32,547 nt of DNA, from contig JAJYPS010000023.1 in the NCBI GenBank assembly GCA_021795215.1, forward strand, positions 1 through 32,547. Direction: 5' to 3'. The DNA is from Actinomycetes bacterium. Its GTDB lineage: Bacteria; Actinomycetota; Acidimicrobiia; Acidimicrobiales; JAKAOS01. Every line of letters begins with the position of its first letter. The first letter of the stretch is position 1. Below are positions 182 to 17,255 of this stretch, in pieces. The notes under the pieces are model-generated. The model did not search any database, was not told the origin of the DNA, and was given only the letters and a program-made list of their open reading frames with translations. Made by a program: the position numbers and the translations under genes.

Positions 182-940
182 GTGCTGACGTCGTTCGCCT
201 CCGGTGCGGTGTTCGGCTCCCGCTACGGCTGCGGGCGACCGTGGCTGGTGGCGCTGCACGGATGGGACAGGACTCACGCCGACTTCGACAGAGCGTTCGG
301 AGAGTCGTCGCCGGACGGGCCGTCCGACGGGCTGGCGATAGACCTGCCCGGTTTCGGCGCCACGCCGCCACCTCCGGTCGCTTGGGGATCGGCGGAGTAC
401 GCCGCTTTCCTGGAGCCGCTGGTGGCCGAGGTGGCGGCCGAGCGTGGCGGACCGGTGGTGGTGGTGGGGCACTCGTTCGGAGGAAGGGTGGCGGTGCTGC
501 TTGGGGCGTCCCGGCCGGACCTGGTGAAGGGCCTGGTGCTGACGGGAGTGCCGCTGCTGCGGAGGGATGGCCCGCGCCCTGCCCCGGCTACCGCCTACCG
601 TCTGGCCCGTGCAGCGAACAGGATCGGGCTGATCGGCGCCGGGCGGATGGAGCAGTACCGGCGCCGGTACGGATCGGCGGACTACCGGAAGGCGACGGGG
701 ACGGTGAGGGACAGCTTCGTGCGGCTGGTGAACGAGGACTACGGGGAGGTGCTGGCGAAGCTGGCCTGTCCGGTGGAGCTGGTGTGGGGAAGCAGGGACG
801 ACCAGGTGCCGCCGGAGGTGGCCCGGAGAGTGGCGGCGATGCTGCCGGATGCCAGGCTTACCGAGTGCGACGGGGTGGGGCACCTGCTGCCGCTGGAGGC
901 TCCGGCGGCACTGCGGGCGGCGGCTGGGAGGTTGAGGTGA
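182..940 (+). CDS. alpha/beta hydrolase
   Basis: This is an alpha/beta-hydrolase-fold enzyme of about 252 residues from the GTG at 182. Family hallmarks are visible: the oxyanion strand ALHGW (about residues 24-28), the nucleophile elbow GHSFGG (Ser about 98), an acid in GSRDDQVPP and the catalytic His in GVGHLLPLE. The substrate cannot be read from the sequence. The track ORF starts at 68, but the first 38 residues look like translated leader (Pro/Cys/Arg-rich, unlike any hydrolase N terminus), so I prefer GTG 182. The stop (TGA 938-940) overlaps the GTG (937) of the next gene, so the two are probably translationally coupled, possibly linking this hydrolase to envelope precursor metabolism. 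The start remains uncertain because no strong Shine-Dalgarno (SD) sequence is present. Confidence 0.85.
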   Translation: MLTSFASGAVFGSRYGCGRPWLVALHGWDRTHADFDRAFGESSPDGPSDGLAIDLPGFGATPPPPVAWGSAEYAAFLEPLVAEVAAERGGPVVVVGHSFGGRVAVLLGASRPDLVKGLVLTGVPLLRRDGPRPAPATAYRLARAANRIGLIGAGRMEQYRRRYGSADYRKATGTVRDSFVRLVNEDYGEVLAKLACPVELVWGSRDDQVPPEVARRVAAMLPDARLTECDGVGHLLPLEAPAALRAAAGRLR

Positions 941-2535
941 ACGTCGTGCCGGTGGTCGTGACGGCGGGAGCGGCCGCCGCGGCCGTCCCCGGCGGGCTGC
1001 GATGGCTGCGGGTGGCGCAGCGGGAGCACTACCTGCCCGGCTCCACGTCCCGTTTCGCCAAGCGGTGGTGGCTGTCGACCGGCTGGGCCAACCTGGGGAT
1101 GGGACTGGGGTCGGTGGGTGCGGCCGCCGCTGCGTCATGGTTCCCGTGGACGGCGCTGGTGAGCGAGGGGCTTGTGGCGGCGGGGCCGCTGGGCCTGAAG
1201 GTGAGGGGCCGGGCCAAGCCGCTCGCCTGGACGCCTCGCATGCGGTCTCTGGCGGGGGTGTGGGCCGGCAGCGAAGCGGTGGTGCTGGGTACGTCGGCGG
1301 TTATGGCCTGGCGGGGAATACCCGGCTGGGCGACGGTGGCGGCAGTTGCGCCGGTGGCGTGTCCTGTGCTGGTGGACGCGGCCCTCGCGGCGACGGCCCC
1401 GTTCCAGCGCCGGTCGGCCAGCCGGTGGATCGACAAGGCACGGCAGCGGCTGGAGAGCGTGGGTCCGGTGGTGGTCGGGGTGACCGGGTCGTACGGCAAG
1501 ACGACCACGAAGGGTTACATAGCCCACCTGTGCAGTCGGAGGTGGTCGGTGCTGGCCAGCCCCGCCAGCTTCAACAACGCACTGGGGCTGGCACGGACGG
1601 TGAACGAGAACCTGGCTGCGGGGACCGAGGTGCTGGTGGCCGAGATGGGGGCGTTCGGGCCTGGAGAGATCGCCCGACTGTGCAGCTGGATGCACCCCCG
1701 CGTGGGCGTCATCACGGCGCTGGGGCCTGTGCATCTGGAGCGTTTCGGCAGCGAGGAGGCGATAGCCAGGGCCAAGGCGGAACTGGTCCATGCGGCCGAC
1801 GTGGCGGTGATAAACGTGAACTATCCCCGGCTTGCCGCCCTGGCGGACGACCTGGAGCGTTCCGGAAAGCGGGTGTGGCGCTGCTCGGGTCGCTGCACTC
1901 CGCCGACCGGTGTGGTGGTGCGCCAGGAGGACGACGGAGTGGTGGTGGAGATGACGCCGCCTCCAGGGGCTCCCGGGGGGTTGGAGCCCGCCCGGGCGAG
2001 GCTGGAGTCGGTGCCGGGAGCGACCGGCAACGTGGCGTGCGCGCTGGCGGCCGCGCTGGAGATGGGTGTGCCGTGGGAGGACGCGGTGGCGGGGCTGGGC
2101 TCGCTGCCGGTAGCGTCTCACCGGCTGGAGCCGCAACTTGCGCCCAGCGGAGCGGTCGTGCTGGACGACACCTACAACTCCAACCCGGCGGGTGCGAGGC
2201 TTGCCCTGCAGACCCTGGCGCAGGTCGGATCGGGTGGGAGGCGGGTGGTGGTCACCCCGGGCATGGTGGAGCTGGGGCGGCTGCAGCACCAGGAGAATGC
2301 TTCGTTCGCCAAGGAGGCGGCGGCTGCGGCGACCGATCTGGTAGTGGTGGGCCGGACCAACAGGTCGGCACTGGTGGAAGGGGCCAGGGAGGTGGAGTCG
2401 GGGCGCAACGGCGCAGGCGCGGCACGGCTGAAACTGGTGAGGTCCAGGGACGAGGCGGTCGCTTGGGTGAGGGAGACGCTGGGCGACGGTGACGCCGTGC
2501 TGTACGAGAACGACCTGCCGGACCACTTTCCGTAG
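937..2535 (+). CDS. membrane-anchored MurF-type Mur ligase
   Basis: A 532-residue Mur ligase. Residues 1 to about 155 are hydrophobic, with several predicted membrane segments (around 1-20, 50-88, 106-152), in place of the usual soluble MurF uridine-nucleotide-binding domain. The central ATPase domain starts with the P-loop GSYGKTTTK (about 184-192), followed by SFNNALGLARTVNE and the MAEMGAFGPGEI-like region. The C-terminal domain carries DDTYNSNP, the MurF-type signature, and ends in ENDLPDHFP. MurF joins D-Ala-D-Ala to UDP-MurNAc-tripeptide; the D-Ala-D-Ala ligase directly downstream supports that chemistry here. The membrane region suggests action at the inner face of the membrane or on a lipid-linked substrate (inference). 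The GTG start overlaps the upstream stop (GTGA). I believe this architecture belongs to a known but little-characterised branch; a canonical murF may exist elsewhere in the genome. Confidence 0.88.
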   Translation: MNVVPVVVTAGAAAAAVPGGLRWLRVAQREHYLPGSTSRFAKRWWLSTGWANLGMGLGSVGAAAAASWFPWTALVSEGLVAAGPLGLKVRGRAKPLAWTPRMRSLAGVWAGSEAVVLGTSAVMAWRGIPGWATVAAVAPVACPVLVDAALAATAPFQRRSASRWIDKARQRLESVGPVVVGVTGSYGKTTTKGYIAHLCSRRWSVLASPASFNNALGLARTVNENLAAGTEVLVAEMGAFGPGEIARLCSWMHPRVGVITALGPVHLERFGSEEAIARAKAELVHAADVAVINVNYPRLAALADDLERSGKRVWRCSGRCTPPTGVVVRQEDDGVVVEMTPPPGAPGGLEPARARLESVPGATGNVACALAAALEMGVPWEDAVAGLGSLPVASHRLEPQLAPSGAVVLDDTYNSNPAGARLALQTLAQVGSGGRRVVVTPGMVELGRLQHQENASFAKEAAAAATDLVVVGRTNRSALVEGAREVESGRNGAGAARLKLVRSRDEAVAWVRETLGDGDAVLYENDLPDHFP

Positions 2536-2647
2536 TCCGGGGAGGCGGGACGGCTGGGAACCGATTGCGCTCCGGGGCGGCAGTGGGAGCGGGTGATGGC
2601 GAAGTGCGGGCGGCGAGCGCCCCGGTGGCTAGATGGGAGGCCGGTCA

Positions 2648-3763
2648 GTGGCGGTAGGGGTGGTATTCGGCGGTCCGTCGCCGGAGCACGACGTGAGCGT
2701 CTTGACGGGGCTTCAGGCGGCACGGGCACTGGCAGGCTCAGGTCGGCAGGTGAGCCTGCTCTACTGGTCCAAAGCCGGCGAGTGGTACGAGGTGGCAGGA
2801 TCACCGGAGGCTGAGGCGTTCCTGGAGGGAGTGCCCAGAGGGTCCGCCGAGCTGTCCCTGGTGAGCGGCCCGGGCGGTGGGTTCGTCGTCAAGGGCGGCC
2901 GCTTCGCCCGCGAGCGGAAGGTCCCGATGGAGGCTGCGCTGGTCTGCTGCCACGGTGGGCCCGGGGAAGACGGCACGCTGCAGGGTCTGCTGGACAGCTG
3001 CGGCGTGAGCTATGCGGGACCGACTGCGGCGGGAGCGGCTCTGGGCATGGACAAGCTTGCCTTCGGCGGCCTGATGACCGCGGCCGGGCTGCCCACCCTT
3101 CGCAGGGCGCTGGTGACCGGAGACGGGTTCGTGGACGGGCCGCCGGGACCGGGCGGACCGTACATAGTCAAGCCCCGCTTCGGCGGCTCTTCGATCGGCA
3201 TCGAGGTGGTGGACGACGCGGCGACGGCGACCGCTCTGGCCAAGTCCAGCCGCCACCTGCGCCGCGGCGGGGTGGTGGAGCAGTGGAGGGGGGATCTGGC
3301 AGACGTCAACATCGCCGTGCGCACGTGGCCGGCGTTGCAGCTGTCTGCCATCGAGCGCCCGCTGCGCAGTACGGGTAGGGAGATCCTCTCGTACTCCGAC
3401 AAGTACGTGGGGGGCCAGGGGATGGTCTCGGCTCCCAGGGAGCTGCCGGCGAAGCTGCCGGCCGATACCGCCGATCGTATCCGGCAGCTCGCGGCGGCGA
3501 TCGTGGTGCTGGCGGGCGTGCGAGGGGTTGCCAGGATCGATTTCCTGGTCGGCGAGCAGGGGGAGATCTTCGTCAACGAGATCAACACGATCCCAGGGTC
3601 GATGTCCAAGTACCTGTGGGTCCAGCCGGACGTCCAGTTCTCCAAGCTGCTCCACGACATGCTGGACGAAGCGGCAGCCCGGCCGTCGGTGGCTTACACC
3701 AGCGAGGGTGCCGACGGAACCGCGCTGCGCAGCGCAGGCAGCATCGCCTCGAAGCTGGCCTGA
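2648..3763 (+). CDS. ddl: D-alanine--D-alanine ligase
   Basis: An ATP-grasp enzyme of 371 residues that condenses two D-Ala with ATP for peptidoglycan synthesis in the cytoplasm. It has the N-terminal VVFGGPSPEHDVS motif, the CHGGPGEDGTLQG loop, the central lysine region YIVKPRFGGSSIG, and the metal-binding/product loop FVNEINTIPGSMS near the C terminus, all typical of Ddl. The track ORF starts at ATG 2633, but GGGAGG (2635-2640) lies 7 nt before GTG 2648, so GTG 2648 is the better start. It follows the MurF-like gene by about 110 nt and probably supplies its dipeptide substrate. Confidence 0.95.
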   Translation: MAVGVVFGGPSPEHDVSVLTGLQAARALAGSGRQVSLLYWSKAGEWYEVAGSPEAEAFLEGVPRGSAELSLVSGPGGGFVVKGGRFARERKVPMEAALVCCHGGPGEDGTLQGLLDSCGVSYAGPTAAGAALGMDKLAFGGLMTAAGLPTLRRALVTGDGFVDGPPGPGGPYIVKPRFGGSSIGIEVVDDAATATALAKSSRHLRRGGVVEQWRGDLADVNIAVRTWPALQLSAIERPLRSTGREILSYSDKYVGGQGMVSAPRELPAKLPADTADRIRQLAAAIVVLAGVRGVARIDFLVGEQGEIFVNEINTIPGSMSKYLWVQPDVQFSKLLHDMLDEAAARPSVAYTSEGADGTALRSAGSIASKLA

Positions 3764-3831
3764 GCCGGGGGCCACCGTGAGGGCGGCGGTCCGCGTCTGC
3801 TGTCGGGTCCCAAGGCGACACTGCAGGGCCG

Positions 3832-3837
3832 TAGCAT
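3832..3837 (+). promoter_or_regulatory. putative -10 (TAGCAT) for a leaderless mRNA
   Basis: TAGCAT ends 6 nt before the GTG start at 3844. With the usual 6-8 nt from -10 to +1 the transcript would begin at or next to the start codon. No SD sequence is present, in agreement with a leaderless message. The -35 is not clear. Confidence 0.45.
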
Positions 3838-3843
3838 GAAGCC

Positions 3844-4461
3844 GTGGCGTTCCGCACCGCCGATCTTGGTCAGTCGGAGGACATGGTGGCGGACCTGCGC
3901 CCGCACTGGTCGGTGCTGATGCCGCCCGGCGTTCTCTCGGCGGTCGTGCTCGCCTCGGCGGTGACGCTCGACCTACTTTTCCCGGGTATGCCGGTGGCGG
4001 CGCTGGTGCTGCTGGTGCTGTGCATCTTCGCCTCTGCGGCATACTTTGCTTGGGCGGCGGTCAAGAGGGCGTCGGTCCACTACGTGTTGACCACCGACCG
4101 GATCGTCATGACGTGGGGGGTGTTGTCCAGGCATGGGAGGGAGCTGCCGCTGTGGCGGGTGGCCGACCTGTCGTATCGTCAGACGGTGCTGCAGAGGGTC
4201 CTCCGGTCCGGCACGGTTTCGATCTACACCGGAGCAGGGGAGCGGCCAACGGATCTGGCCCACGTGCCTGGGCCCGACCGGCTCCACCACGCGGTGTGGG
4301 TGCAGGTGGAGGGTGGCCGCAGGCGGCGGCGGTGGGTGCAGGAGGGCTCGGGGAAGTTGACCGTCCCGGAGCAGCTGGAGAAGCTGTACGAGCTGAAGCG
4401 GCGCGGCGCCATCTCCGACGAGCAGTTCCGCACGCAGACCGACGCTCTTTTCGACAGTTAG
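3844..4461 (+). CDS. PH-domain (bPH2-like) membrane protein with C-terminal SHOCT domain
   Basis: A 205-residue protein with two hydrophobic helices (about 20-45 and 48-72), then a bacterial PH-like domain (YVLTTDRIVMTWGVLSRHGRELPLWRVADLSYRQTVLQRVL), the pattern of DUF304/bPH2 proteins. A basic linker (GGRRRRRW) leads to a SHOCT module (LEKLYELKRRGAISDEQF), a short C-terminal helical domain often found in oligomeric or membrane-associated bacterial proteins. The molecular role is not known; bPH2 proteins are membrane proteins thought to act in envelope processes. It stands alone on the + strand between ddl and the methyltransferase gene. The start GTG 3844 is chosen because of the -10-like TAGCAT just upstream. 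Confidence 0.85.
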   Translation: MAFRTADLGQSEDMVADLRPHWSVLMPPGVLSAVVLASAVTLDLLFPGMPVAALVLLVLCIFASAAYFAWAAVKRASVHYVLTTDRIVMTWGVLSRHGRELPLWRVADLSYRQTVLQRVLRSGTVSIYTGAGERPTDLAHVPGPDRLHHAVWVQVEGGRRRRRWVQEGSGKLTVPEQLEKLYELKRRGAISDEQFRTQTDALFDS

Positions 4462-4547
4462 GGATCTGCCGGTACCGGCCGGGCTCGCGGATACCCGGCT
4501 CGCCGACGCCCGGCGCGGCGCGGCGGGGCAGCGCAGCGCTGCAGATC

Positions 4548-4565
4548 GCCCCGTTTCGTCGGGGC
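4548..4565 (+). terminator. short hairpin between PH-SHOCT gene and methyltransferase gene
   Basis: GCCCCG-TTTCGT-CGGGGC is a perfect 6-bp stem with a 6-nt loop in the 109-nt gap. There is no T-run. It ends 5 nt before GTG 4571, so it could be a factor-assisted terminator or could affect initiation of the next gene. Confidence 0.3.
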
Positions 4566-4570
4566 CACTG

Positions 4571-5476
4571 GTGTGGGAGCATGGGGACATGCCTCCGGAG
4601 GACTGCGCAGAGCTGGCCCGCTACTGGGCCGAGTCGCTCGCCGAATGGGCTATCCCCGACGAGATACTGGCCAAGGCTCCCGAGCCGCCCTGGGGACTGC
4701 CTCCGGGCCTGTTCACCCCTCCGCCAGAGCCTGCCGACACCCCGTCGAGGAGGGTGGCGCTGGCTCCGCTGCAGGCAAAGCCGGGAGGTGGCAGTGTGCT
4801 GGACATCGGTGCCGGCGGGGGAGCGGCCAGCTTTGCGCTGGTTCCCCCGGCCACCAGGCTGACTGCTGTGGACCAGTCGCCGGCCATGCTGCGGTCGTTC
4901 GCCGAACGGGCCGCCGAGCGCGGCGTGGAAGCCGTCACGGTGGAGGGAAGCTGGCCGGACGTCGCTGTATCGGTCGATCCGGCCGACGTGGTGGTGTGCC
5001 ACAACGTGCTCTACAACGTGGCCGACCCCGTCCCGTTCCTCACGGCGCTGACGGAGCACGCCGAGCTGAGGGTGGTGATCCAGATCACGGCGAACCATCC
5101 GCGTGCCAGGCTCTCGCCCCTGTGGAGCCGGTTCTGGGGCATCACGATGCCGCAGCGTCCTCGTGCCACCGACGCGCTGGATCTCGTACGGGCGATGGGA
5201 CTGCCCGCGGAGTCGCAGAGCTTCACCACTGCCCGACCGCCGGTCGAGAACCGGTCCGAGCTGGTGGCTTTCGTGCGGCGGCAGCTGTGCGTGGGCCCGG
5301 AACGGGACGGGGAGATAGAGCGCTGGATCTCGGAGAACGGGTTCGGCGAGCGCCAGGCGGTCTGCATCTGGTGGGACACCGGTCGCATACAGCGGTCGCG
5401 GTACGAGTTGGACGACGTTCCGGCGGTGATCCAGCCCGATCTGCCGGACGACGACCAGGCGCCTGCGGTCGCCTGA
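4571..5476 (+). CDS. class I SAM-dependent methyltransferase
   Basis: A 301-residue (or 295 from ATG 4589) Rossmann-fold methyltransferase. SAM motif I is VLDIGAGGGAASF (about 77-89), motif II has the acidic TAVDQSPAMLRSF, and the motif IV region is ADVVVCHNVLYNV. The substrate is not apparent; a conserved-looking 65-residue N-terminal helical part (CAELARYWAESLAEWAIPDEIL) precedes the fold. The C-terminal tail is acidic. Two starts are possible; GGGAG at 4575-4578 is about 10 nt before ATG 4589, which I slightly prefer, but the longer frame is given. The downstream ATPase gene starts only 14 nt after the stop and is probably co-transcribed. Confidence 0.8.
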   Translation: MWEHGDMPPEDCAELARYWAESLAEWAIPDEILAKAPEPPWGLPPGLFTPPPEPADTPSRRVALAPLQAKPGGGSVLDIGAGGGAASFALVPPATRLTAVDQSPAMLRSFAERAAERGVEAVTVEGSWPDVAVSVDPADVVVCHNVLYNVADPVPFLTALTEHAELRVVIQITANHPRARLSPLWSRFWGITMPQRPRATDALDLVRAMGLPAESQSFTTARPPVENRSELVAFVRRQLCVGPERDGEIERWISENGFGERQAVCIWWDTGRIQRSRYELDDVPAVIQPDLPDDDQAPAVA

Positions 5477-5490
5477 CGGCCGGCAGCCCT

Positions 5491-6804
5491 TTGTACCTGG
5501 GTAGAGGGAAGGACGGCTCGCTGCTCTTCACGCCGGCGGAGTCGGGGCTGCTGGTGCTCGGACCTCCCAGGTCGGGCAAGTCGGCTGCGATCGTCGTGCC
5601 GAACGTGCTGGGTGCCACGGGGCCGGTCGTGTCGACTTCGACCAAGACCGACGTGATGGAGGCTACCAGCGGCTGCCGTGCGCGGCAGGGGGACTGCCTG
5701 CTGTACGACCCGTCGGGGTCGGTCGACGCACCTCGGGGAGTAAGGCGGGTGACCTGGTCCCCGGTATCGGCCGCCTCCAGTTGGGATGGCGCTTTGGAGG
5801 TGACCCGAGCGCTGGTGCGCTCCGCCCACGGCATGGTCGGTCCGGACTCCCGGCACTGGTCGGAGCGTGCGGAAGCACTGCTGGCCCCGTTGTTCCACGC
5901 CGCCTGGCTGGCAGGCGAGGGGCCCGAGCGGGTGTCGGAGTGGGTCCACCGCCACCACGTGGCCGACTCCCAGGACGTGTTGCACGCCAACGGTGCCGAC
6001 TTCGCCGCAGGGGTGCTCGACGGTATTGCCGCCACCGACGAGAGGGAGCGATCCGGCATATTCTCCACCGCCGCGGGCGTGCTCGCCGCCTACCGGTCGG
6101 AAGGGGCCCGGTCCTCCTCCTCCGACTCCGAGGTGTCCCGGTTCGATCCGGCGGTGTTCGTGTCCGGCGGCGACACGCTCTACGTCTGTGCGCCGGCGAC
6201 GTCGCAGTCGCTGACCGCCCCGCTGGTGAGCGGTCTGGTCGACCGCATTCGCGCAGCCACCTACGCGGTCCACGGCTCCGGGACACGGACCGACGGCAAA
6301 CCTCCGGCGCGGCCCCGCCCTGCGGTCCTGCTGGCTCTGGACGAAGTGGCCAACATCGCGCCTCTGCCGGACCTGCCCGCAGTCGCATCGGAGGGAGGCG
6401 GTCAGGGCCTCGTCACGCTGGCGTGCCTGCAGGACCTGTCCCAGGCTCGGTCCCGCTGGGGTGACCAGGCGAGCGGCTTCATGTCACTGTTCGGCGCCAA
6501 GCTGTTCCTGCCTGGCATAGCCGACGTGCAGACGCTGGAGGCGGTATCGACTCTGATAGGCGACCGGCAGGTTGCGCTGCACAGCCGGACGCGGGGCCGG
6601 GGACGGAGCGGTTGGTCCTCCTCGTCCGGATCGACCACCGGGTTCCGGCGGCGGATGCCTCCCGATCTGCTGTCGAGGGGCCGGCCGGGAAGCGCCTTGT
6701 GGCTGCAGGGCGGGGAGCAGCCCCGCTCGGTACGGCTCACTCCCTGGTACTCCGCCTCACCCTGGAGGGAGCTCGCCGCCGCAGGTGCCCCTCCGCCGAG
6801 CTGA
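5491..6804 (+). CDS. VirD4/TraG-like ATPase (conjugative coupling-protein family)
   Basis: About 437 residues from TTG 5491. The Walker A motif GPPRSGKSA (about 24-32) sits almost at the N terminus, a STKTDVM stretch follows, and Walker B is VLLALDEVANI (about 279-289), followed by VTLACLQDLSQARSRWG, typical of TraG/TraD/VirD4 coupling proteins and their TraM-recognition end region. Such proteins are hexameric ATPases that recruit DNA or protein to type IV secretion channels. The usual N-terminal transmembrane helices are missing, and no relaxase or mating-channel gene lies nearby, so it is an orphan. No ATG/GTG lies in frame between the upstream stop and Walker A, so TTG is the likely start; the SD is poor. 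It is probably in an operon with the methyltransferase. The function is unknown. Confidence 0.82.
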   Translation: MYLGRGKDGSLLFTPAESGLLVLGPPRSGKSAAIVVPNVLGATGPVVSTSTKTDVMEATSGCRARQGDCLLYDPSGSVDAPRGVRRVTWSPVSAASSWDGALEVTRALVRSAHGMVGPDSRHWSERAEALLAPLFHAAWLAGEGPERVSEWVHRHHVADSQDVLHANGADFAAGVLDGIAATDERERSGIFSTAAGVLAAYRSEGARSSSSDSEVSRFDPAVFVSGGDTLYVCAPATSQSLTAPLVSGLVDRIRAATYAVHGSGTRTDGKPPARPRPAVLLALDEVANIAPLPDLPAVASEGGGQGLVTLACLQDLSQARSRWGDQASGFMSLFGAKLFLPGIADVQTLEAVSTLIGDRQVALHSRTRGRGRSGWSSSSGSTTGFRRRMPPDLLSRGRPGSALWLQGGEQPRSVRLTPWYSASPWRELAAAGAPPPS

Positions 6805-6828
6805 ACGGCTCGGCCCCTGACTGTCCCC

Positions 6829-7755
6829 TCAGCCCGCGGTCGACCTCTTTCGGTTTCGCCTCTCGGCTCGCTCCAGCTCCCTCTGGACGTCGTTCCACGT
6901 CAGGGGGTCGGGGTCCAGCCCTGCGTTCTGCGCCTTCTCTCCCCGCACCCATATCAGCGCAGCCGTGCCCCACAGCACCAGGATGCCGGCGAGCTTCGTC
7001 ACCGCCCCCGCCACCTGCTGGTCGGCCAGCGGGCTCAGGCCGAACAGCCCCGAGTGGTCGGCGTAGACGGCGTAGAAAGGATGCTGGGCAAAGATGAACA
7101 GCAGTGCCGGGAAGTTGGGAAGGATCGATATCACGAACAGGTACCCCATCCGACCGCCGATCGACAGGTGCCTGCCGTCCGGCAGGAGCCTCAGGACGGG
7201 AAGCCACATCACCAGCCCCGCAAGGCACAGAGCGACCTCCACCGCCGCGTCCAGGAGCCACGAATGCGCCTGTGCGTCGACCACGTCAGGGCTAAGGCAC
7301 CCGAGGGCGACAGTCGAGAAGATCAGCGCGGCGGGCACCGGCCGGGTGATCGCCCGCAGCCCGGTGTCGACCAGCCTGTTCCGTGTTGCCGAGGCGTAGG
7401 CGGACCGCGGGATACCGAGCAGCAGCAAGGGTGCCGACACCAGCACCAGCAGGAGCTGCTGAACCATGCGGGCCAGCAGCGACCAGTGCTGCGCCAGGTC
7501 CGCCACCGGCCACGTGACCGCCGTCGCCACCGAGGCCAGTCCCAATCCGAAACAGGTCACCTGTCCCGTAGTAGGTTGCCCGAGCGCCCGCTTCCAACGG
7601 CCCACCGGAAGACCGAACAGCAACTGGCAGTAGCCGACGGCAGAAGTGGCGATCAGGACCCAGGCAACCGGGTGCCAGTGCCATGCCCAAGGAGAGCCGC
7701 CCACCTTGCAGATCGTAGATGCTGGCACAGGCCCGGGGAAGTGGGAAGCGGACAC
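6829..7755 (-). CDS. CtaG-family cytochrome c oxidase assembly protein (copy 1)
   Basis: A 308-residue integral membrane protein of the CtaG_Caa3 family, which in Bacillus is needed to assemble a functional caa3-type cytochrome c oxidase, probably through copper delivery. Family features are visible: WAWHWHPVAWV at the N terminus, DLAQHWSLLARMVQQLLLVLVSAPLLLLG, then GYLFVISILPNFPALLFIFAQHPFY, with about seven hydrophobic helices and a charged cytoplasmic tail (RELERAERRNRKRS). The start is GTG at 7755. It lies 74 nt downstream of the phosphatase gene on the same strand and converges with the TraG-like gene, leaving 24 nt between their stops. A second CtaG gene lies at 9.4 kb in the opposite direction. 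Confidence 0.88.
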   Translation of the reverse strand: MSASHFPGPVPASTICKVGGSPWAWHWHPVAWVLIATSAVGYCQLLFGLPVGRWKRALGQPTTGQVTCFGLGLASVATAVTWPVADLAQHWSLLARMVQQLLLVLVSAPLLLLGIPRSAYASATRNRLVDTGLRAITRPVPAALIFSTVALGCLSPDVVDAQAHSWLLDAAVEVALCLAGLVMWLPVLRLLPDGRHLSIGGRMGYLFVISILPNFPALLFIFAQHPFYAVYADHSGLFGLSPLADQQVAGAVTKLAGILVLWGTAALIWVRGEKAQNAGLDPDPLTWNDVQRELERAERRNRKRSTAG

Positions 7756-7829
7756 CGGACCGAGACCGACTGCGGGAGAGTCGATCCGTTGCAGCCGCCC
7801 GACGGGTTCCTGGGAGCCCAGGTCGCGAG

Positions 7830-9344
7830 TCAGCTCGAGCTGGCACGGAACTGGCTGGCCCCAGAAGTGGCGCCGCGCACTCCTTCTTTTCCGTACCAGT
7901 CGATGCAGACCACGGTGGCGTCGTCGCTCAGCACTTGACCGGTCGCCTCCAGCAGATGGTCGGCCAGCTCCTGAACCACCTGTCTCGGATGACGGTCGCG
8001 GGTGGACCGCAGCACCTGCTCCACGTTTACTCGGGAAGTGTTGCGCTCCAGGTAGCCGTCGGTCACCAGCAGCAGCCGGTCCCCCGGGACCAGCTGCACT
8101 CTGTGTACCGAATACGTGCTGTCGCCGATCCCGAACGGCGTATCCGCCGCCAGGACGAGCGCCGAGGCCCGTCCGTCCCGAAGTAGGTACGGCAGTGGGT
8201 GCCCGGCGTTGACGATCTCCATGAGGCCGCTGGAGAAGCTGGCTCGCAGCAGTTGGGCGGTGACGAACTCCGAATCCTGACCGTGCTCGACGATCGAGCA
8301 GTGGGCAGCTCTGGCCTGAGCCGCCAGGTCGTCATACGCCCGCCGGCTGTTGCGCAGTGCGCCGACCGCCAGGGTCGCCAGCAGGGCTGCCCGCACCGAA
8401 TGGCCCATCGCGTCCGTGATCGACACGTGCAGGTCGTCGGCTTCGATCGAATAGTCGAACGTGTCGCCCCCGACGTTGTGCGCCGGCTCCAGCCATCCCG
8501 CCAGTGTCACCGCTCGGTCCTCGGCGGTGTAGGACGAAGGAAGCAGCCGCCGTTGGATCTCCGCCGCTACCGAGAACCGAATGTCGCGTTGAGTGTTCTC
8601 GAACCTGTCCGTGTGGCGCCGTGCAGCGATGAGCATGTAGGCGAGCGCATGAGCCGCGCTGCGCAGCAGGTCCACCGTGCTGTCGTCCGGGCTCTCGCTC
8701 AGCGTCACCTCCAGGATCCCCATCGCATCGCCCCGCTCGGTGACCGGCAGCAGCACCCTCCACACCCCGCTCGCCTGTGACACCCCGCTCGCCTGTGACA
8801 CCCCGCTCGCCTGCGACACCTCGACCGCCTGCGTGTGCAGCACCCGTGTGTACAGCGAATCGGCCCTGGTCAGATCCTCGTCGGTTCCGCCGCCCCGTCG
8901 TTCTCCCACGTCGCCACGTGAGGATGCGAAGTGATCTTCGACCACGCGGACCAACGCCGTACCGCTCAGGTTGGCAAGGAGCAGGCGCACCTTCTCGGTC
9001 GGCAGCAGCCTTCCGAGCTCCTCGGCGACGACACGGACCACGTCGACCGGGGGAGCCTCCTCGACTGCTGCCAGCAGGCGGCGCAAGTCAAGTGCCCCGG
9101 TTTCCTTCGCCTGCATCCTCGGACAGTACATGCAGCCCAAGTTCGATTGCACAGGGAAGAAAGTTGCTGGCTCAGGCGCCACTAGTTGCGCGTAACCGGG
9201 CGGGTTCGGGAGCAGTCCCGGACGTCCGAGACCGGCCGTCGCCAAGGCGACCGAGCGGGCTTCCGAGGCGCTCGACCGCCCAGACTCTGTCGGACGCGCC
9301 GGCACTGGCGGATTTGCGGTTGCTGTGGCAGGCAAAAGGTCCAT
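7830..9344 (-). CDS. PP2C/SpoIIE-type serine phosphatase with GAF-like sensor
   Basis: About 504 residues from ATG 9344. The N terminus is Pro/Ala-rich and contains CMYCPRM, a CxxC pair. A GAF-like region follows (LRRLLAAVEEAPPVDVVRVVAEELGRLL... VWRVLLPVTERGDAMGILEV). The C-terminal domain is a PP2C of the SpoIIE/RsbU kind: EIQRRLLPSS, VGGDTFDYS (metal-binding Asp), ITDAMGHSVRAALL, NAGHPLPYLL, LLLVTDGYLERN and LSDDATVV. Such enzymes dephosphorylate anti-anti-sigma factors in partner-switching signalling (family knowledge). A six-residue VSQASG repeat lies in the GAF-like part. The track start (9440) would overlap the divergent ctaG start; ATG 9344 is only a compromise, and a GTG nearer 9180 is also possible. 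No sigma-factor partners are adjacent. Confidence 0.86.
   Translation of the reverse strand: MDLLPATATANPPVPARPTESGRSSASEARSVALATAGLGRPGLLPNPPGYAQLVAPEPATFFPVQSNLGCMYCPRMQAKETGALDLRRLLAAVEEAPPVDVVRVVAEELGRLLPTEKVRLLLANLSGTALVRVVEDHFASSRGDVGERRGGGTDEDLTRADSLYTRVLHTQAVEVSQASGVSQASGVSQASGVWRVLLPVTERGDAMGILEVTLSESPDDSTVDLLRSAAHALAYMLIAARRHTDRFENTQRDIRFSVAAEIQRRLLPSSYTAEDRAVTLAGWLEPAHNVGGDTFDYSIEADDLHVSITDAMGHSVRAALLATLAVGALRNSRRAYDDLAAQARAAHCSIVEHGQDSEFVTAQLLRASFSSGLMEIVNAGHPLPYLLRDGRASALVLAADTPFGIGDSTYSVHRVQLVPGDRLLLVTDGYLERNTSRVNVEQVLRSTRDRHPRQVVQELADHLLEATGQVLSDDATVVCIDWYGKEGVRGATSGASQFRASSS
8763..8834. repeat. 18-bp tandem repeat inside the phosphatase gene
   Basis: The unit CACCCCGCTCGCCTGTGA is repeated three times (8763-8816, one mismatch in the third copy), followed by a degenerate fourth copy. 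On the coding strand it encodes VSQASG hexapeptides. The period keeps the frame. Confidence 0.9.
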
Positions 9345-9374
9345 TCGCTTCGGGTCGCGTCGCTTCGGGTCGCG
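9345..9374. repeat. 15-bp tandem duplication near the phosphatase/ctaG start region
   Basis: CGCTTCGGGTCGCG is present twice in tandem with a 15-bp period. It lies between the phosphatase start region and the divergent ctaG promoter, and would encode repeated DPKR if the long phosphatase frame were used. Confidence 0.7.
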
Positions 9375-9397
9375 CTCCGGCGCGAGGACTGCGGAGG

Positions 9398-9403
9398 TAA
9401 CGT
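9398..9403 (+). promoter_or_regulatory. putative -10 (TAACGT) for ctaG copy 2
   Basis: TAACGT ends 5 nt before the tandem GTG GTG at 9409-9414. GGAGG (9393-9397) also precedes it at about 11 nt from the start, so either a leaderless message or an SD-led one is possible; both point to GTG 9409 as start. Confidence 0.4.
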
Positions 9404-9408
9404 CGCGA

Positions 9409-10296
9409 GTGGTGCCAGCAGCCGTCAGCCCGCATGTCACTTTCGACCGGCTGCTTCTGGCGTGGCAACTACAGCCGCTCGCCCTGGCGTCGCTCGCCGT
9501 CGTGGTGCTGGTCGGGTTCGCCTATGTGGCCGGCGTACGCCGGGTGCAGCGGCGGGGACGGGCTTGGTCCCGGTGGAAGACCGCTTCCTTTGTCGGCGGC
9601 CTGGCGTCCATAGTCGTGGCGGTCAACTCCGGGCTCGCCTCGTACGACGACTCGGTGTTCACGATGCACGTCATACAACACCTGATCCTCATGAGCACCG
9701 CCCCGCCCCTGCTCGCGTTGGGGTCTCCCGTCACGCTCCTGCTCCAGGCGTCTTCCAGGGACACCAAACGGGTCGTGCTGAAGGTGCTCCACAGCCGTCC
9801 CGCCCGGATGCTCTCCTTCCCCCTCGTGGGGCTTGCCGTCTCGACGGTCGTCATGTATGGGTACTTCCTGACCCCCCTGTACGACGCGTCTCTCGTGCAT
9901 CCTCTGCTGCACGACGCCACGCACGTGGTCTTCCTGGCGGCCGGCTCGCTCTACTGGTGGCCGATAGTTGGTACCGATCCCATACCGAGGCGGATGGGCG
10001 TCGGGGCAAGGATGGCTTCGCTGGGCCTCGCCATCCCGTTCAACGCCTTCCTGGGCATCGCGGTCATGAACATGTCGTCGCCGATAGCACCCCGCTACAG
10101 CCTGACCGACACCCAGTCCGGGGGAGCGCTCCTGTGGGGCCTCGGGGAGCTGTTCACCCTGGGTGCGCTCGGAGTGCTGTTCCGGGAGTGGGCCAAGGTC
10201 GAGGAGCGACGGGCGGCCAGGGAGGATCGTCGGCTCGACGCAGAGCGCCTTGCCGCTCGAAACCCCGGTTCGGCTGCGGCCGGCGACCGCTCGTAG
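9409..10296 (+). CDS. CtaG-family cytochrome c oxidase assembly protein (copy 2)
   Basis: About 295 residues from GTG 9409, an integral membrane protein of the CtaG_Caa3 family. It shows WQLQPLALASLAVVVLVGFAYVAG (helix 1), the His-rich FTMHVIQHLILMSTAPPLLALGSPVTLLLQ motif, LLHDATHVVFLAAGSLYWWPIVGTDP, and a last helix before a strongly charged tail (EERRAAREDRRLDAER). These match the family core better than copy 1 does. The track frame starts at 9325, but the intervening residues are repeat-derived and Arg-rich. It is divergent from the phosphatase gene and convergent with the Lrp-like gene. Confidence 0.88.
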   Translation: MVPAAVSPHVTFDRLLLAWQLQPLALASLAVVVLVGFAYVAGVRRVQRRGRAWSRWKTASFVGGLASIVVAVNSGLASYDDSVFTMHVIQHLILMSTAPPLLALGSPVTLLLQASSRDTKRVVLKVLHSRPARMLSFPLVGLAVSTVVMYGYFLTPLYDASLVHPLLHDATHVVFLAAGSLYWWPIVGTDPIPRRMGVGARMASLGLAIPFNAFLGIAVMNMSSPIAPRYSLTDTQSGGALLWGLGELFTLGALGVLFREWAKVEERRAAREDRRLDAERLAARNPGSAAAGDRS

Positions 10297-10350
10297 AGCC
10301 GCCTCTCCCCGAGTCCCCGGTCCTTCGGCATTTCGCAACGGTGCTCGCCG

Positions 10351-10366
10351 GCTCCCTCCGGGGAGC
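10351..10366. terminator. hairpin between convergent ctaG and Lrp-like genes
   Basis: GCTCCC-TCCG-GGGAGC forms a perfect 6-bp stem with a stable-looking tetraloop in the 73-nt convergent gap. A wider CGGCTC/GAGCCG pairing encloses it. No T-run is present; it may act in both directions. Confidence 0.4.
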
Positions 10367-10369
10367 GTG

Positions 10370-10606
10370 TCAGAGCCGCATGACCGGACACGTCAGCGTC
10401 CGGGTTACGCCCTCTATGAGCTGCACCCTGGACACGACCGTCTTGCCCAGCTGGTCGACGGACTCGGCTTCGGCTCGGATTATCACGTCGTAGGGTCCGG
10501 TCACGTCGTCGGCCGCGACGACACCCGGTATGCCCCTGACCTCGCCGGCGACCTGCGCCGCCCTTCCCACCTCAGTCTGGACCATCACGTACGCCATCAC
10601 CGTCAC
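10370..10606 (-). CDS. stand-alone Lrp/AsnC ligand-binding (RAM) domain protein
   Basis: A 78-residue alpha/beta protein: VMAYVMVQTEVGRAAQVAGEV, GVVAADDVTGPYDVIIRAE, then LGKTVVSRVQLIEGVTRTLTCPV. This is the effector-binding/oligomerisation domain of Lrp/AsnC regulators without the helix-turn-helix. Stand-alone versions probably bind amino acids and may modify full-length regulators (inference). The track frame starts at 10699, but AAGGAGG lies 8 nt before a GTG at 10606, which decides the start; the extra N-terminal residues are Arg/Ser-rich noise. Confidence 0.88.
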   Translation of the reverse strand: MTVMAYVMVQTEVGRAAQVAGEVRGIPGVVAADDVTGPYDVIIRAEAESVDQLGKTVVSRVQLIEGVTRTLTCPVMRL

Positions 10607-10730
10607 CGGGCGAGCCTCCTTCGGGTACGCGGATGGTACCGGGCTGCACCAGCATTCGGTGCGGCGCCGGCGGCTTGGCGACGCCTGTCCTTCCGACACG
10701 AGGCCGGGTGCGCACCGCGGGCCGTGCGAT

Positions 10731-10736
10731 TAGGGT
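10731..10736 (+). promoter_or_regulatory. putative -10 (TAGGGT) for def
   Basis: TAGGGT fits TANNNT and is 14 nt before GTG 10751 and 47 nt before the alternative CTG start at 10784. No clear -35. Confidence 0.35.
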
Positions 10737-10750
10737 GGCCCTAGCGCGCC

Positions 10751-11341
10751 GTGGCGGGCTCACAGCTTTTCGAGGAGGAGACGCTGGCTGTTCGCTCAAT
10801 ACGCTTGCTGGGTGACCCGGTGCTCCGTGCTCGGGCATCCGAGGTCGTGGATTTCGATCGCCCTCTGCGCCGGCTCGTCAAGGACTTGGGGGACACCATG
10901 GTGGAGGCCAACGGAGTCGGGTTGGCGGCTCCTCAGTTGGGGATCGGGCTGCGGGTGTTCACGTACCTGGTGCCATCCTCGGAGGACGACGACGGAGGCC
11001 ATGTCGCGCACCTCGTGAACCCTTCCATCGCGGAGGAGGACCCGGACCAGGTGGAGGACGACGAAGGCTGCCTCTCCGTGCCCGGTATCTCGTACCCGCT
11101 GAAGCGACCTCGCAGGGTGGTGGCCAGAGGTTTCGACGGGCACGGGGAGCCGGTCGAGGTGACAGGCACGCTGCGGCTTGCCAGGTGCATCCTGCACGAG
11201 ACGGATCATTTGAACGGAGTCATCTTCTTGGACCGGCTCGAACCAGAGCTCCGCCGGGAGGCGCTGAAGGAGTTTCGCGAGCGGATGCTCGCAGGCGAGT
11301 CGATCCAGGTCGAGAAGTCACCGCACAGGCCCCTGCTCTGA
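10751..11341 (+). CDS. def: peptide deformylase
   Basis: A 196-residue (185 from CTG 10784) metalloenzyme that removes the formyl group from new N-terminal methionines. All three family motifs are intact: GVGLAAPQLG (motif I), EGCLSVPG (motif II, the metal-binding Cys) and HETDHLNG (motif III, two metal-binding His and the catalytic Glu). Family proteins usually begin just before the RSIRLLGDPVLR segment. That segment is preceded by GAGGAGGAG (10772-10780) and then CTG at 10784, so the real start could be the non-canonical CTG; the conventional choice is GTG 10751. The E1 dehydrogenase gene follows after 37 nt. Confidence 0.95.
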   Translation: MAGSQLFEEETLAVRSIRLLGDPVLRARASEVVDFDRPLRRLVKDLGDTMVEANGVGLAAPQLGIGLRVFTYLVPSSEDDDGGHVAHLVNPSIAEEDPDQVEDDEGCLSVPGISYPLKRPRRVVARGFDGHGEPVEVTGTLRLARCILHETDHLNGVIFLDRLEPELRREALKEFRERMLAGESIQVEKSPHRPLL

Positions 11342-11378
11342 GGGTGCACGAGCCGGTCTCCACAGCGGAGGAGCGATA

Positions 11379-13706
11379 ATGGCAGCCAAGTCCCAGGCGA
11401 CCGCGCAGTCCCGTGTCACCGGAGTGGCGGGTCGCGTGGGGGCGCCCGACCATTCCGACCGGGGATTCGGCTCCGGCGCCGACCGGAATGCGAGGAGTGC
11501 TGGCGCCCCCGCGGTGCGACGACCGGGAGAGTCGGCCGCTCGGCGCCCCGCAGGATGGCCCGACTCGGAACTGCTGGAGGACTACAGGCTGGCCTGCGTC
11601 TCGCGTGCCATAGACGACCGCGAGGTCATCCTGCACAAGCAGAGCCGAGCGTTCTTCCAGATCTCCGGTGCCGGTCACGAGGCTCTGCTCCTGGGGTTGG
11701 CCCGTTATCTGCGGCCCGGCTACGACTGGTTCTTCCCCTACTACCGCGACTTGGCGCTGATGCTCGGCCTGGGCGTCAGTCCGTACGAGATCCTGCTGCA
11801 GTCGGTCGGCTCGGCGGACGACGCGGCGTCGGGGGGCAGGCAGATGCCTTCGCACTGGGGCTTCGTGGACAAGAACGTGGTCACGCAGTCGAGCCCGACG
11901 GGGAGCCAGTGCCTGCCGGCGGTCGGATGTGCGGAGGCGGCGCAGTACATGCAGCAGCGCAGCCACCTTTTTGTAGACGAGGTCCACGCCGACGAAGTGG
12001 TCTATGTGTCCCTGGGCGAGGGTGCGACTTCGGAGGGCGAGTTCTGGGAGAGCCTGAACACAGCGTGCAACCTGCGCCTACCGGTGCTGTACGTCGTCGA
12101 GGACAACGGCTACGCGATATCTGTGCCCGTGGCGGAGCAGTCCCCCGCGCCCATCTCGGAGCTGGTGACGGGGTTCCCCGGCCTCACCGTCGAAGTGGTG
12201 GACGGATGCGACTACGTAGCGGTGCGGGACGTCGCGGAGCGAGCCGTGGCGGCCGTCCGCTCGGGCAACGGACCCTGGCTGCTGCACGCCAGGGTCACGA
12301 GGCCGCACTCGCACTCGTCGGCAGACAACCAGGCAAAGTACCGCTGCGCCGACGAGCTGGCGGAAGAGGCCGAGCGAGATCCCCTCGTGGTGTTCGAGCG
12401 CCACCTGGCCGCCCGGGGCCTGCTGGATTCAACGGGCGCCACGGAAGCCCGTGCCCAGGCGCGCCAGCTCGTGTCCGAAGCCGCTGCTGCCGCGCTGGCG
12501 GCGCCGAGACCCGACCCGGAGTCGGTCACCGACCACGTGTGGGACCTGGACAGGGTGACCTCCGGCGTGTCGGTCCGGCAGGACGACGGTCTCGCCGGTG
12601 CACGGCCCCCCGGTGGCAACCACTTCGACCCGTGGGTGGGCCGTCACGCGCGAGCGGCCTCGAGCGGCGAACGTACGGGCGGAGAAGTGGTCGCGATGGG
12701 TGAGGCGATCCGGCGGACTCTGGCGGAGGCGCTGGAGGAAGACGACCGGGTGCGGGTGTTCGGAGAGGACGTGGCCGACGCGGCGGAAAGCGTGCTGGGA
12801 AAAGTGGACGGCCAAGGCGGAGTGTTCGGCACGACGTTCGGGCTGCAGCGCCACTTCGGCGCCTCGCGGTGCTACAACACTCCGCTCGCGGAGGCGAACA
12901 TCGTCGGCCGGGCGGTCGGCCAAGCGGTGAGGGGACTTCGACCCTGTCCCGAAGTGCAGTTCTTCGACTACATCTGGCCTGCGATGCAGCAGATCAAGAG
13001 CGAGGCCGCCACGATCCGCTGGCGGTCCAACGGAGCGTTCTCCTGCCCGATGGTCCTCCGGGTGCCCATCGGCGGTTACATCACCGGGGGCGCCATCTGG
13101 CACTCGCAGTGCGGCGAGTCGATCTTCGCCCACATTCCCGGCCTGTTCGTGGCGTTCCCGTCCCGGGCGGCGGACGCGGCGGGCCTGCTGCGGACGGCGC
13201 TGAGGGCGGCGGACCCGGTGCTGTTCCTGGAGCACAAGCACCTGCTTCGCCAGGCCTACACCAAGGACCCGTTCCCCCCGGCGGGAGAGCTGATCCCCTT
13301 CGGCGTAGCCAGGACGGTGGTCACCGGAGAAGACCTGACCATCGTGACGTGGGGTGCGACGGTGGAGAGGTGCCGTCGCGTCGCCGCTTCGCTGGAGACC
13401 GCGGACGAGGCGTCGGTCGAGGTGATCGACCTACGGACGATCATGCCGTGGGACCGCCAGGCGGTCGCCGACTCCGTGCGCCGAACCGGAAGGCTGCTGG
13501 TGGTGCACGAGGACACCCTCACTGCCGGGTTCGGCGCCGAGGTGGCTGCCTGGGCCGCTCAGGAGTGCTTCGCCGATCTGGATGCCCCCGTCCGGCGGGT
13601 GGCAGCGAAGGACACCCACGTTGCCTACGAACCGACCCTGGAGCGCTCGACGCTTCCCCAGGTGGAGGACATCGCCGCGGCGGTAGCCGACCTGCTGGCC
13701 TGGTAG
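11379..13706 (+). CDS. fused E1alpha-E1beta 2-oxoacid (branched-chain type) dehydrogenase
   Basis: 775 residues, with both E1 subunits in one chain. Residues 1 to about 60 are a low-complexity tail. The E1alpha half (about 62-400) has SRAFFQISGAGHEA, DWFFPYYRDLALML, MPSHWG and the thiamine-diphosphate motif GEGATSEGEFW...EDNGYAIS (about residue 213; GEG where GDG is usual). The E1beta half (from about 437) begins GEVVAMGEAIRRTLAEAL and contains VFGEDVAD, NTPLAEANIVGRAVG and HEDTLTAGFGAEVAAWAAQECF. The enzyme decarboxylates 2-oxo acids and transfers the acyl group to a lipoyl E2; the E1alpha motifs look most like the branched-chain or generic 2-oxoacid type. No E2 or E3 gene is in the window. 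GGAGG lies 9-10 nt before ATG 11379. The substrate is uncertain. Confidence 0.9.
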   Translation: MAAKSQATAQSRVTGVAGRVGAPDHSDRGFGSGADRNARSAGAPAVRRPGESAARRPAGWPDSELLEDYRLACVSRAIDDREVILHKQSRAFFQISGAGHEALLLGLARYLRPGYDWFFPYYRDLALMLGLGVSPYEILLQSVGSADDAASGGRQMPSHWGFVDKNVVTQSSPTGSQCLPAVGCAEAAQYMQQRSHLFVDEVHADEVVYVSLGEGATSEGEFWESLNTACNLRLPVLYVVEDNGYAISVPVAEQSPAPISELVTGFPGLTVEVVDGCDYVAVRDVAERAVAAVRSGNGPWLLHARVTRPHSHSSADNQAKYRCADELAEEAERDPLVVFERHLAARGLLDSTGATEARAQARQLVSEAAAAALAAPRPDPESVTDHVWDLDRVTSGVSVRQDDGLAGARPPGGNHFDPWVGRHARAASSGERTGGEVVAMGEAIRRTLAEALEEDDRVRVFGEDVADAAESVLGKVDGQGGVFGTTFGLQRHFGASRCYNTPLAEANIVGRAVGQAVRGLRPCPEVQFFDYIWPAMQQIKSEAATIRWRSNGAFSCPMVLRVPIGGYITGGAIWHSQCGESIFAHIPGLFVAFPSRAADAAGLLRTALRAADPVLFLEHKHLLRQAYTKDPFPPAGELIPFGVARTVVTGEDLTIVTWGATVERCRRVAASLETADEASVEVIDLRTIMPWDRQAVADSVRRTGRLLVVHEDTLTAGFGAEVAAWAAQECFADLDAPVRRVAAKDTHVAYEPTLERSTLPQVEDIAAAVADLLAW

Positions 13707-13768
13707 CTCCGACCGGGGTGTGCGACGGCACCGGGAGAGGGTGGCGTGGTCGGACTGCCGTCAGGCTT

Positions 13769-15931: not shown

Positions 15932-15937
15932 TCGGTC

Positions 15938-15943
15938 ACGCTA
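15938..15943 (-). promoter_or_regulatory. putative -10 (TAGCGT) of the S9 peptidase gene
   Basis: On the minus strand TAGCGT ends 6 nt before ATG 15931; no SD is present. It lies just outside repeat copy A, so any -35 contact would fall within the repeat. Confidence 0.45.
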
Positions 15944-15954
15944 CCCAATGGGGG

Positions 15955-16180
15955 GCAACTGGCGCGACCTGTCTCGGCGTCGTGACGGCCGGCGGTCACT
16001 ACGTGGTGGCTTCGGCGCGCTGCGACCGAAGCGTGCGAAAACCAACACCTACGCCCACGTTCTGGCAGAAAGCCATTTCTGCCGTGATCGCCGCAGGCGA
16101 GGATCAGCCGCGGCCACCTGATCGCTCGTCGTCCGACCAGCGGCCGGTGAAGATATTGAAGCCAGGCAAACGAAAGCCCG
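15955..16180. repeat. 226-bp direct repeat, copy A (left edge of island)
   Basis: It matches 18321-18546 in the same orientation, with seven mismatches and no gaps by my reading (about 97%). It includes the inverted repeats GTGAC-N8-GTCAC, GCTTCGG-N10-CCGAAGC (16009-16032) and GGCAGAAA-GCCA-TTTCTGCC (16064-16083). On the minus strand its right part encodes the tail FRLPGFNIFTGRWSDDE of the small membrane protein found intact at copy B; here the membrane-helix part is absent, so this copy is a truncated remnant of that gene. Confidence 0.93.
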
Positions 16181-16205
16181 TCCGAGCCTCACCGCCGCGC
16201 GCCCC

Positions 16206-16302
16206 CAACTTGGCCACGACGAGCATGTCGCCCGACCGACACGCCGTGCGGTGAGGTCCTGTCGTCTGTCGACACCTTGGCGTAGCCGATCTTGACGTCG
16301 AC
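16206..16302 (-). pseudogene. serine recombinase (resolvase family) N-terminal remnant
   Basis: On the minus strand one frame reads VDVKIGYAKVSTDD (16261-16302), the typical start of resolvase/invertase-family serine recombinases including the catalytic Ser. A shift to a second frame gives RQDLTARR, and a third frame gives SGDMLVVAKLGAR (16200-16232), matching the later GDxLVVxKLDRLAR motif of the family. The expected 35-40 residues between the last two motifs are missing. It is a frameshifted and internally deleted fossil, cut off at repeat copy A. Confidence 0.7.
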
Positions 16303-16370
16303 AGCCCGCCGCCCTTGGCGATGGGAAGCTGGAATCGGTGAGCATCGCCCAGGTTGCTCGGCCTGCCAAG

Positions 16371-16402
16371 ACCAGTCCTCGACTGGTACAATGAATCGTA
16401 CC
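16371..16402 (+). promoter_or_regulatory. promoter/operator of the yefM-yoeB operon
   Basis: A -10-like TACAAT (16387-16392) overlaps two inverted repeats: ACCAGT-N5-ACTGGT (16371-16387) and GGTAC-N8-GTACC (16385-16402). YefM-type antitoxins autorepress by binding palindromes at their own promoter, so these are candidate operators. A weak -35 candidate CTGCCA (16363-16368) lies 18 nt upstream of the -10. Confidence 0.55.
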
Positions 16403-16423
16403 GTTACCGGAGGAGGGCAGGCC

Positions 16424-16672
16424 GTGACCGTCACCGCCAGCGAGGCCCGCAAGAACCTATTCCCGCTCATTGAGCGGGTCAACGACGATCGCCAGCCCAT
16501 CGAGATCACCTCTCGCCGCGGCGATGCGGTGCTCGTGGCGCGGGCCGACTGGGATGCGCTAAACGAAACGGCCATGCTGCTGCGGGTACCAGCCAACGCC
16601 CACTGGTTGTTGGACAGCCTGGCGCAGGCTCACGCCGGGGCACGGGAAGAGCACGCCCTCGATCGAAGCTAG
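16424..16672 (+). CDS. yefM: YefM/Phd-family antitoxin
   Basis: 82 residues from GTG 16424 (TVTASEARKNLFPLIERVNDDRQPIEITSRRGDAVLVARADWDALNETAMLL). This is the standard YefM/Phd fold: an N-terminal DNA-binding dimer part followed by a C-terminal helical tail that wraps the toxin. GGAGG (16409-16413) lies 10 nt before the GTG; the track's earlier starts, including ATG 16391, overlap the promoter and are less likely. The stop codon directly abuts the toxin start, so the pair is one operon. It neutralises the YoeB-like RNase and represses its own promoter (family knowledge). Confidence 0.92.
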   Translation: MTVTASEARKNLFPLIERVNDDRQPIEITSRRGDAVLVARADWDALNETAMLLRVPANAHWLLDSLAQAHAGAREEHALDRS

Positions 16673-17249: not shown

Positions 17250-17255
17250 GCCGGA

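Follow-up and report, generated by a model that had tools for sequence, protein, structure and literature searches.

A coupling ATPase without a membrane helix and its probable place in a resident, dispersed conjugation-type system of the Acidimicrobiales

The ATPase gene and its methyltransferase neighbour

The stretch of DNA considered here (32,547 nucleotides, hereafter the window) corresponds to contig C16 in a genome of 2.6 Mb and 152 contigs, which is 92.7% complete; the named records of its relatives are Acidimicrobiales metagenome-assembled genomes. Positions 4571-6804 hold a class I SAM methyltransferase gene and, after it, the gene of a VirD4/TraG-type ATPase, which we call VirD4-A. 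The features to which the text refers are the following:

3844..4461, + strand: bacterial PH-domain/SHOCT protein, in a synteny block kept in genomes G034 and G051
4571..5476, + strand: class I SAM methyltransferase, 301 aa (Pfam); neighbour of the ATPase through lineage-local synteny, the partnership not being conserved
5491..6804, + strand: VirD4-A, coupling ATPase without membrane helix, 437 aa (Pfam, orthologues, AlphaFold/Foldseek); TTG start at 5491 probable
5560..5583, + strand: Walker A (P-loop) of VirD4-A, GPPRSGKS, residues 24-31 (alignment of 40 homologues)
5782..6195, + strand: helical stretch of VirD4-A, residues ~98-235, at the position of the TrwB-type all-alpha domain (secondary structure of the model, Foldseek; the borders are our reading)
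6331..6345, + strand: Walker B of VirD4-A, LALDE, residues 281-285 (alignment of 40 homologues)

The reading frame of the ATPase formally opens at 4573; that 5′ part overlies the methyltransferase gene in another frame, as a shadow, and the protein probably starts at the TTG at 5491, a weak start codon that was placed from homologues and lies 14 bp past the methyltransferase stop. Elsewhere in the window, a Mur-ligase-like gene adjoins a D-Ala-D-Ala-ligase-like gene (937-3763), both belonging to the synteny block described below, and a YefM/YoeB-type toxin-antitoxin pair is encoded at 16424-16933 (Pfam PhdYeFM_antitox and YoeB_toxin).

The methyltransferase (Pfam Methyltransf_12/25/11, E ~1e-9 to 1e-10) looks like a generic small-molecule enzyme, its structural model, of low confidence (pLDDT 74, two sequences), resembling many small-molecule methyltransferases. 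From its close spacing to the ATPase, the earlier note had proposed a joint function of both genes, a proposal that did not survive the neighbourhood survey. Besides the window, the methyltransferase adjoins VirD4-A in G002 alone, a genome of the same family where the pair overlaps; in G034 and G051 it stands two genes off, and it was not seen near VirD4-A in G001, again of the same family. A specific match to it was found at one of the 80 named VirD4-A loci, against 50 for the relaxase discussed below. A synteny block made of hydrolase, Mur ligase, Ddl, PH and methyltransferase genes is kept in G034 and G051, so that the neighbourhood reflects local synteny. That both genes would form a pair of their own, handling DNA or protein with no relation to conjugation, draws on the 14-bp spacing and the overlap in G002, but the gene is not beside VirD4-A in nearly all relatives and two extra genes intervene in G034 and G051; we consider this reading scarcely credible, and the counts rule out the methyltransferase as a partner of VirD4-A. 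A role in anti-phage defence was also considered and rejected: the ATPase had no match in PADLOC, and the methyltransferase domain overlapped mad2 only in part.

A VirD4/TraG relative that begins with its nucleotide-binding domain

VirD4-A matches the Pfam families TraG-D_C (PF12696, E 2.9e-21) and T4SS-DNA_transf (PF02534, E 4.1e-21), and PF10412 too. Both Walker motifs are invariant or nearly so among 40 homologues, with G24, P25, R27, G29 and K30 invariant in Walker A and L283, D284 and E285 in Walker B, which bears out the description of the protein, made previously from the DNA letters, as a VirD4/TraG-like ATPase with clear Walker A and B motifs. The absence of membrane helices, also claimed then, agrees with two observations: a scan of the window protein for hydrophobic segments of 19 residues found none, and the AlphaFold model (pLDDT 94, pTM 0.91) opens directly with the nucleotide-binding domain.

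Over the whole chain, the best Foldseek matches of the model are Cagbeta and TrwBdeltaN70, that is, TrwB minus its first 70 residues (E 1e-13 to 1e-17 and TM ~0.68 against TrwB/Cagbeta). The all-alpha domain which in the TrwB fold is inserted in the nucleotide-binding domain is also present, as judged by the model and its comparison with TrwBdeltaN70. VirD4-A would thus correspond, over its whole length, to the nucleotide-binding and helical domains of TrwB of R388, of the VirD4/TraG family and of Cagbeta, but, unlike in these, the orthologues examined have no N-terminal membrane domain and the gene is resident, chromosomal and away from the channel genes. An N-terminal membrane domain is found in most VirD4/TraG members; since a helix-free class is known, it is not strictly defining. 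In VirD4-A the ATPase domain of the family is there and the membrane domain is not, the N-terminus being short in the relatives of the window protein as well.

Judging from the sequences compared, the helix-free form is the normal state of the VirD4-A family. The homologues retrieved in a first search of 59 relatives, mostly at 44-56% identity, begin only a few to ~37 residues ahead of the conserved stretch YLG...GPPRSGKT, and the orthologues across the order measure ~400-520 aa and have a common start point. An upstream frameshift or a start-site artefact that would hide a membrane part, a possibility already raised in the earlier note, was rejected, since the upstream genes vary among lineages and relatives with unrelated upstream genes share the same start; no frameshift was found.

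VirD4-A is present in 59 of 198 Acidimicrobiales genomes, belonging to 19 sampled families, and scores at the level of the subfamily were confined to this order in a sample of 297 genomes of the phylum. Between close pairs, dN/dS ranges from 0.07 to 0.27. The sister group (support 100/99) is made of full-length plasmid coupling proteins with membrane helices, from small Mycobacterium and Rhodococcus plasmids; because these have the anchor, the simplest reading of the tree is that VirD4-A lost it. The nearest relatives found outside the order are VirD4 proteins of Mycobacterium/Rhodococcus plasmids (NZ_CP089219, NZ_CP118325; 35-37% identity), which, unlike VirD4-A, measure ~606-608 aa, have predicted membrane helices and are plasmid-borne. 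The Rhodococcus and Mycobacterium plasmids at loci L283/L284, of 13.8-18.4 kb, carry a full-length VirD4, and the profile search for a relaxase found none on them.

Secretion locus and relaxase in the same genome

The earlier note had called the ATPase an orphan, with neither relaxase nor VirB4 gene in 32 kb. The local part of this statement stands, for none appeared in the gene calls or in the Pfam scans of the genes near the ATPase, but both are encoded elsewhere in the genome and the protein is not an orphan. Targeted searches distribute the parts over three contigs: VirD4-A on C16, a single MobF/TrwC relaxase on C139, and on C105 the remote type IV secretion locus for which a search had been suggested.

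The conserved order of the C105 operon is DUF6112 (VirB2-like), VirB6-like, EccE/SCO6880-like, VirB4 ATPase and a second VirD4 relative (VirD4-B); genes for a transglycosylase and for a two-component system lie close by. The labels VirB2 and VirB6 were given from position, size, hydrophobic pattern and matches to the annotated locus of an Iamia plasmid. The combination of a VirB4 ATPase with VirB6/VirB2-like genes, by which conjugative type IV secretion is recognized, is found at C105 and order-wide. The Iamia sp. plasmid (NZ_CP050950) has all five channel gene types plus a MobF relaxase matching our profiles (DUF6112, VirB6, SCO6880, VirB4, VirD4, mobF); there, in contrast to the resident genes, they form one cluster, the VirD4 has membrane helices and an intact P-loop, and the relaxase has a helicase P-loop.

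VirD4-B of C105 carries two hydrophobic segments at its N-terminus and, in the tree, VirD4-A and VirD4-B fall in different clades. Its P-loop reads GPSQTMKT, the glycine being replaced. In 27 VirD4-B-type proteins, that of C105 among them, this residue is exchanged for M, Q, H, R, Y, F or K, with ~four changes on the tree and the Lys-Thr retained; many other VirD4-B keep the glycine. A rule by which VirD4-B would lose it whenever VirD4-A is present was discarded, as many resident VirD4-B keep GKT and, in G067, the glycine was lost without VirD4-A. Even where the glycine is lost, VirD4-B mostly stays in the operon with its helices and Walker B, which suggests a scaffold role.

The relaxase of C139 (938 aa; L088:6614-9430) matches PF08751 with E 7e-69 and has intact Tyr13/Tyr14 (YY) and HUH motif HRLSRAADPHLHTH; the Tyr and HUH residues are retained in most resident relaxases. 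The Walker A of a C-terminal helicase (GxxxxGK[ST]) was sought after the relaxase domain in 69 resident relaxase reading frames and found in none, against 20 of 21 long non-resident ones. Short frames account for 46 of the 69, a few of them cut by contig or locus ends, and the 23 others are long and lack the motif. This loss could reflect decay; the low dN/dS of the relaxase (0.14-0.35) argues against it. In the relaxase tree, the sequences linked to VirD4-A and most of those from VirD4-A genomes stand apart from the rest, two from such genomes (G002, G041) grouping among the others. Five VirD4-A genomes gave no relaxase match at threshold, and the matches in family f23 are weak.

Several layers of evidence connect these parts. 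The relaxase adjoins VirD4-A in 50 of the 80 named loci, mostly tail to tail, an association with a relaxase or with channel genes being what is looked for in a coupling protein; in the window genome they lie on separate contigs. Moreover, all five inspected genomes of family f16 (G017, G070, G105, G163, G188) have the relaxase next to a VirB2-VirB6-EccE-VirB4 operon and divergent to it, and in G017 and G105 VirD4-B is absent after VirB4 and VirD4-A is present. Different lineages thus tie VirD4-A to the relaxase and the relaxase to the channel. The homologues are mostly not found inside one single complete conjugation cluster, consistent with the reading of the earlier note; in the closed genome G034, the same chromosome bears the channel operon at ~207-212 kb, the relaxase at ~581 kb and VirD4-A at ~610 kb.

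Furthermore, VirB4 occurs in 57 of the 59 VirD4-A genomes and in 24 of 139 others (Fisher p 1e-27), and the relaxase in 54/59 and 42/139, respectively (p 2e-16), values that ignore shared ancestry and overstate independence because the VirD4-A genomes have a common history. When pairwise distances were compared with those of motif-checked rpoB, the correlation was strong for VirD4-A (rho 0.78) and VirB4 (0.79), lower for VirD4-B (0.64) and weak for the relaxase (rho 0.34, p 0.04); VirD4-A and VirD4-B distances correlate moderately with each other (rho 0.41). That the distances of VirD4-A and VirB4 follow rpoB points to a resident system, mainly inherited vertically. Together with the genes around the secretion locus that different families have in common, this pattern speaks to some extent against an integrative conjugative element, for which a patchy, horizontal distribution would be expected besides an integrase and att sites.

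A proposed dispersed export system and the explanations that compete with it

We hold it probable, at roughly 60%, that the Acidimicrobiales have a resident, dispersed DNA-export system of conjugation type in which VirD4-A is the soluble coupling ATPase. From sequence we read which components exist, that they are associated and that they descended vertically; nicking, docking and DNA export would proceed as follows. The relaxase would nick a chromosomal oriT and remain bound to the strand, and VirD4-A, as a TrwB-like hexamer, would take the relaxase-DNA complex from the cytosol and dock on the base of the VirB4/SCO6880/VirB6 channel. VirD4-B, where present, might serve as a membrane platform, having membrane helices and often a damaged P-loop, and VirD4-A and VirB4, the ATPases with an intact P-loop, would power the export. 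Because the relaxase lost its own helicase, unwinding would have to come from VirD4-A or from a host helicase. The product would be chromosomal single-stranded DNA, delivered to a neighbour cell or released. The former suggestion of a function outside classical conjugation keeps part of its sense here, the system being chromosomal, scattered and altered, but its parts are those of conjugation.

It has been described that TrwB, MobB and PcfC deprived of the membrane domain do not support transfer (PMC7431656); VirD4-A would therefore have to be anchored in some other way, and in G017 and G105 the place after VirB4 has no VirD4-B to play this part. A comparable arrangement, likened here by description, is that of pIP501 TraJ/TraI, in which a small membrane anchor is thought to tether the helix-free VirD4 ATPase TraJ (PMC7431656, PMC13037476). 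In contrast to pIP501, the system of the Acidimicrobiales is scattered over the chromosome, and its possible anchor would be another VirD4 relative of full size.

A variant that overlaps this explanation regards VirD4-A and VirD4-B as rival coupling proteins, one for DNA and one for protein, with no joint complex. Their position in different clades and the secretion locus of G017 and G105, which lacks VirD4-B, are compatible with it, but the retention of VirD4-B in the operon despite the loss of the glycine, with its suggestion of a scaffold, makes this variant doubtful in our view. It is also conceivable, if unlikely, that co-option turned the system to secreting proteins or to releasing or taking up DNA, with VirD4-A feeding protein substrates or the relaxase alone to the channel. 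Precedents exist in the chromosomal type IV systems of Patescibacteria (PMC12102498) and in the gonococcal island (PMC12857230), and the missing relaxase helicase would hamper the transfer of long strands. The Patescibacteria system is also lineage-wide, of monoderm type, and its coupling genes are often far from virB4 (PMC12102498); but relaxases are mostly absent there, whereas the Acidimicrobiales retain a relaxase whose catalytic motifs are intact, which is under selection and which is linked to the coupling protein.

Decay is the theme of another alternative, which sees in these parts the remnants of an old integrated conjugative element, in which VirD4-A was deprived of its membrane part and the relaxase of its helicase, and that would now move no DNA, or would only aid passing plasmids. 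The scattered genes, the P-loop glycine of VirD4-B lost in many lineages, the helicase P-loop absent from the resident relaxases and the sister proteins of VirD4-A on plasmids would all fit such an origin. Yet VirD4-A and the relaxase are under purifying selection, the Walker motifs of VirD4-A and the Tyr/HUH residues of most resident relaxases are retained, and nearly every VirD4-A genome (57/59) keeps VirB4; we judge this alternative improbable.

Returning to the DNA-export reading, the set departs three times from its mobile relatives, as far as the sequences tell: in the soluble coupling protein, in the glycine loss of VirD4-B and in the relaxases without helicase. A bolder version, which we put forward tentatively and with less than even confidence, is that a chromosomal, conjugation-type machine for gene exchange, resident and inherited vertically, exists in many Acidimicrobiales; it would be Hfr-like without being an integrated plasmid, and would combine a soluble coupling ATPase, an ATP-impaired membrane VirD4 and a helicase-less relaxase. 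Conjugation genes are normally borne by plasmids or integrated elements. Vertical retention of a conjugation-type set of relaxase, coupling ATPase and channel across 19 sampled families of an environmental order, with common departures from the mobile forms, would make these bacteria owners of the machine and not its hosts. Such a set would be a test case for two questions: whether bacteria keep conjugation on their own account, to exchange genes or release DNA, and in what way a coupling ATPase functions when it has no membrane anchor. A survey of 2011 had described the Acidimicrobidae as devoid of FtsK-type actinobacterial elements (PMC3218068), and in the open-access literature we found no paper on a resident system in Acidimicrobiales, nor any joining Acidimicrobiales, conjugation and relaxase.

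Some observations concern the genes around these loci. Those flanking the secretion locus are common to different families; on the sides of the operon, several families have genes for a histidine kinase and response regulators, joined in some cases by a Fur-like gene (L052 16547-18580, with counterparts in L053, L055, L058, L059 and L060). Genes similar to flgK, flgL, fliW and csrA lie beside the resident secretion locus or relaxase in two distant families (L272 of G034, 5881-17999; L092 of G017, 2541-18118), with Pfam confirming FlgK in G017. A large secreted-looking protein of 684-698 aa is encoded between the EccE-like gene and that of VirB4 in G017 and G105 (L092 14629-16683, L280 4794-6890), these being the same two genomes without VirD4-B there. 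Close to the resident relaxase, a PafB/PafC-like pair of WYL regulators is found in several families (L088 10427-12297; L034, L099), on C139 and likewise in G040 and G051. In mycobacteria PafB/PafC are regulators of DNA-damage control, and such neighbours might hint at regulation.
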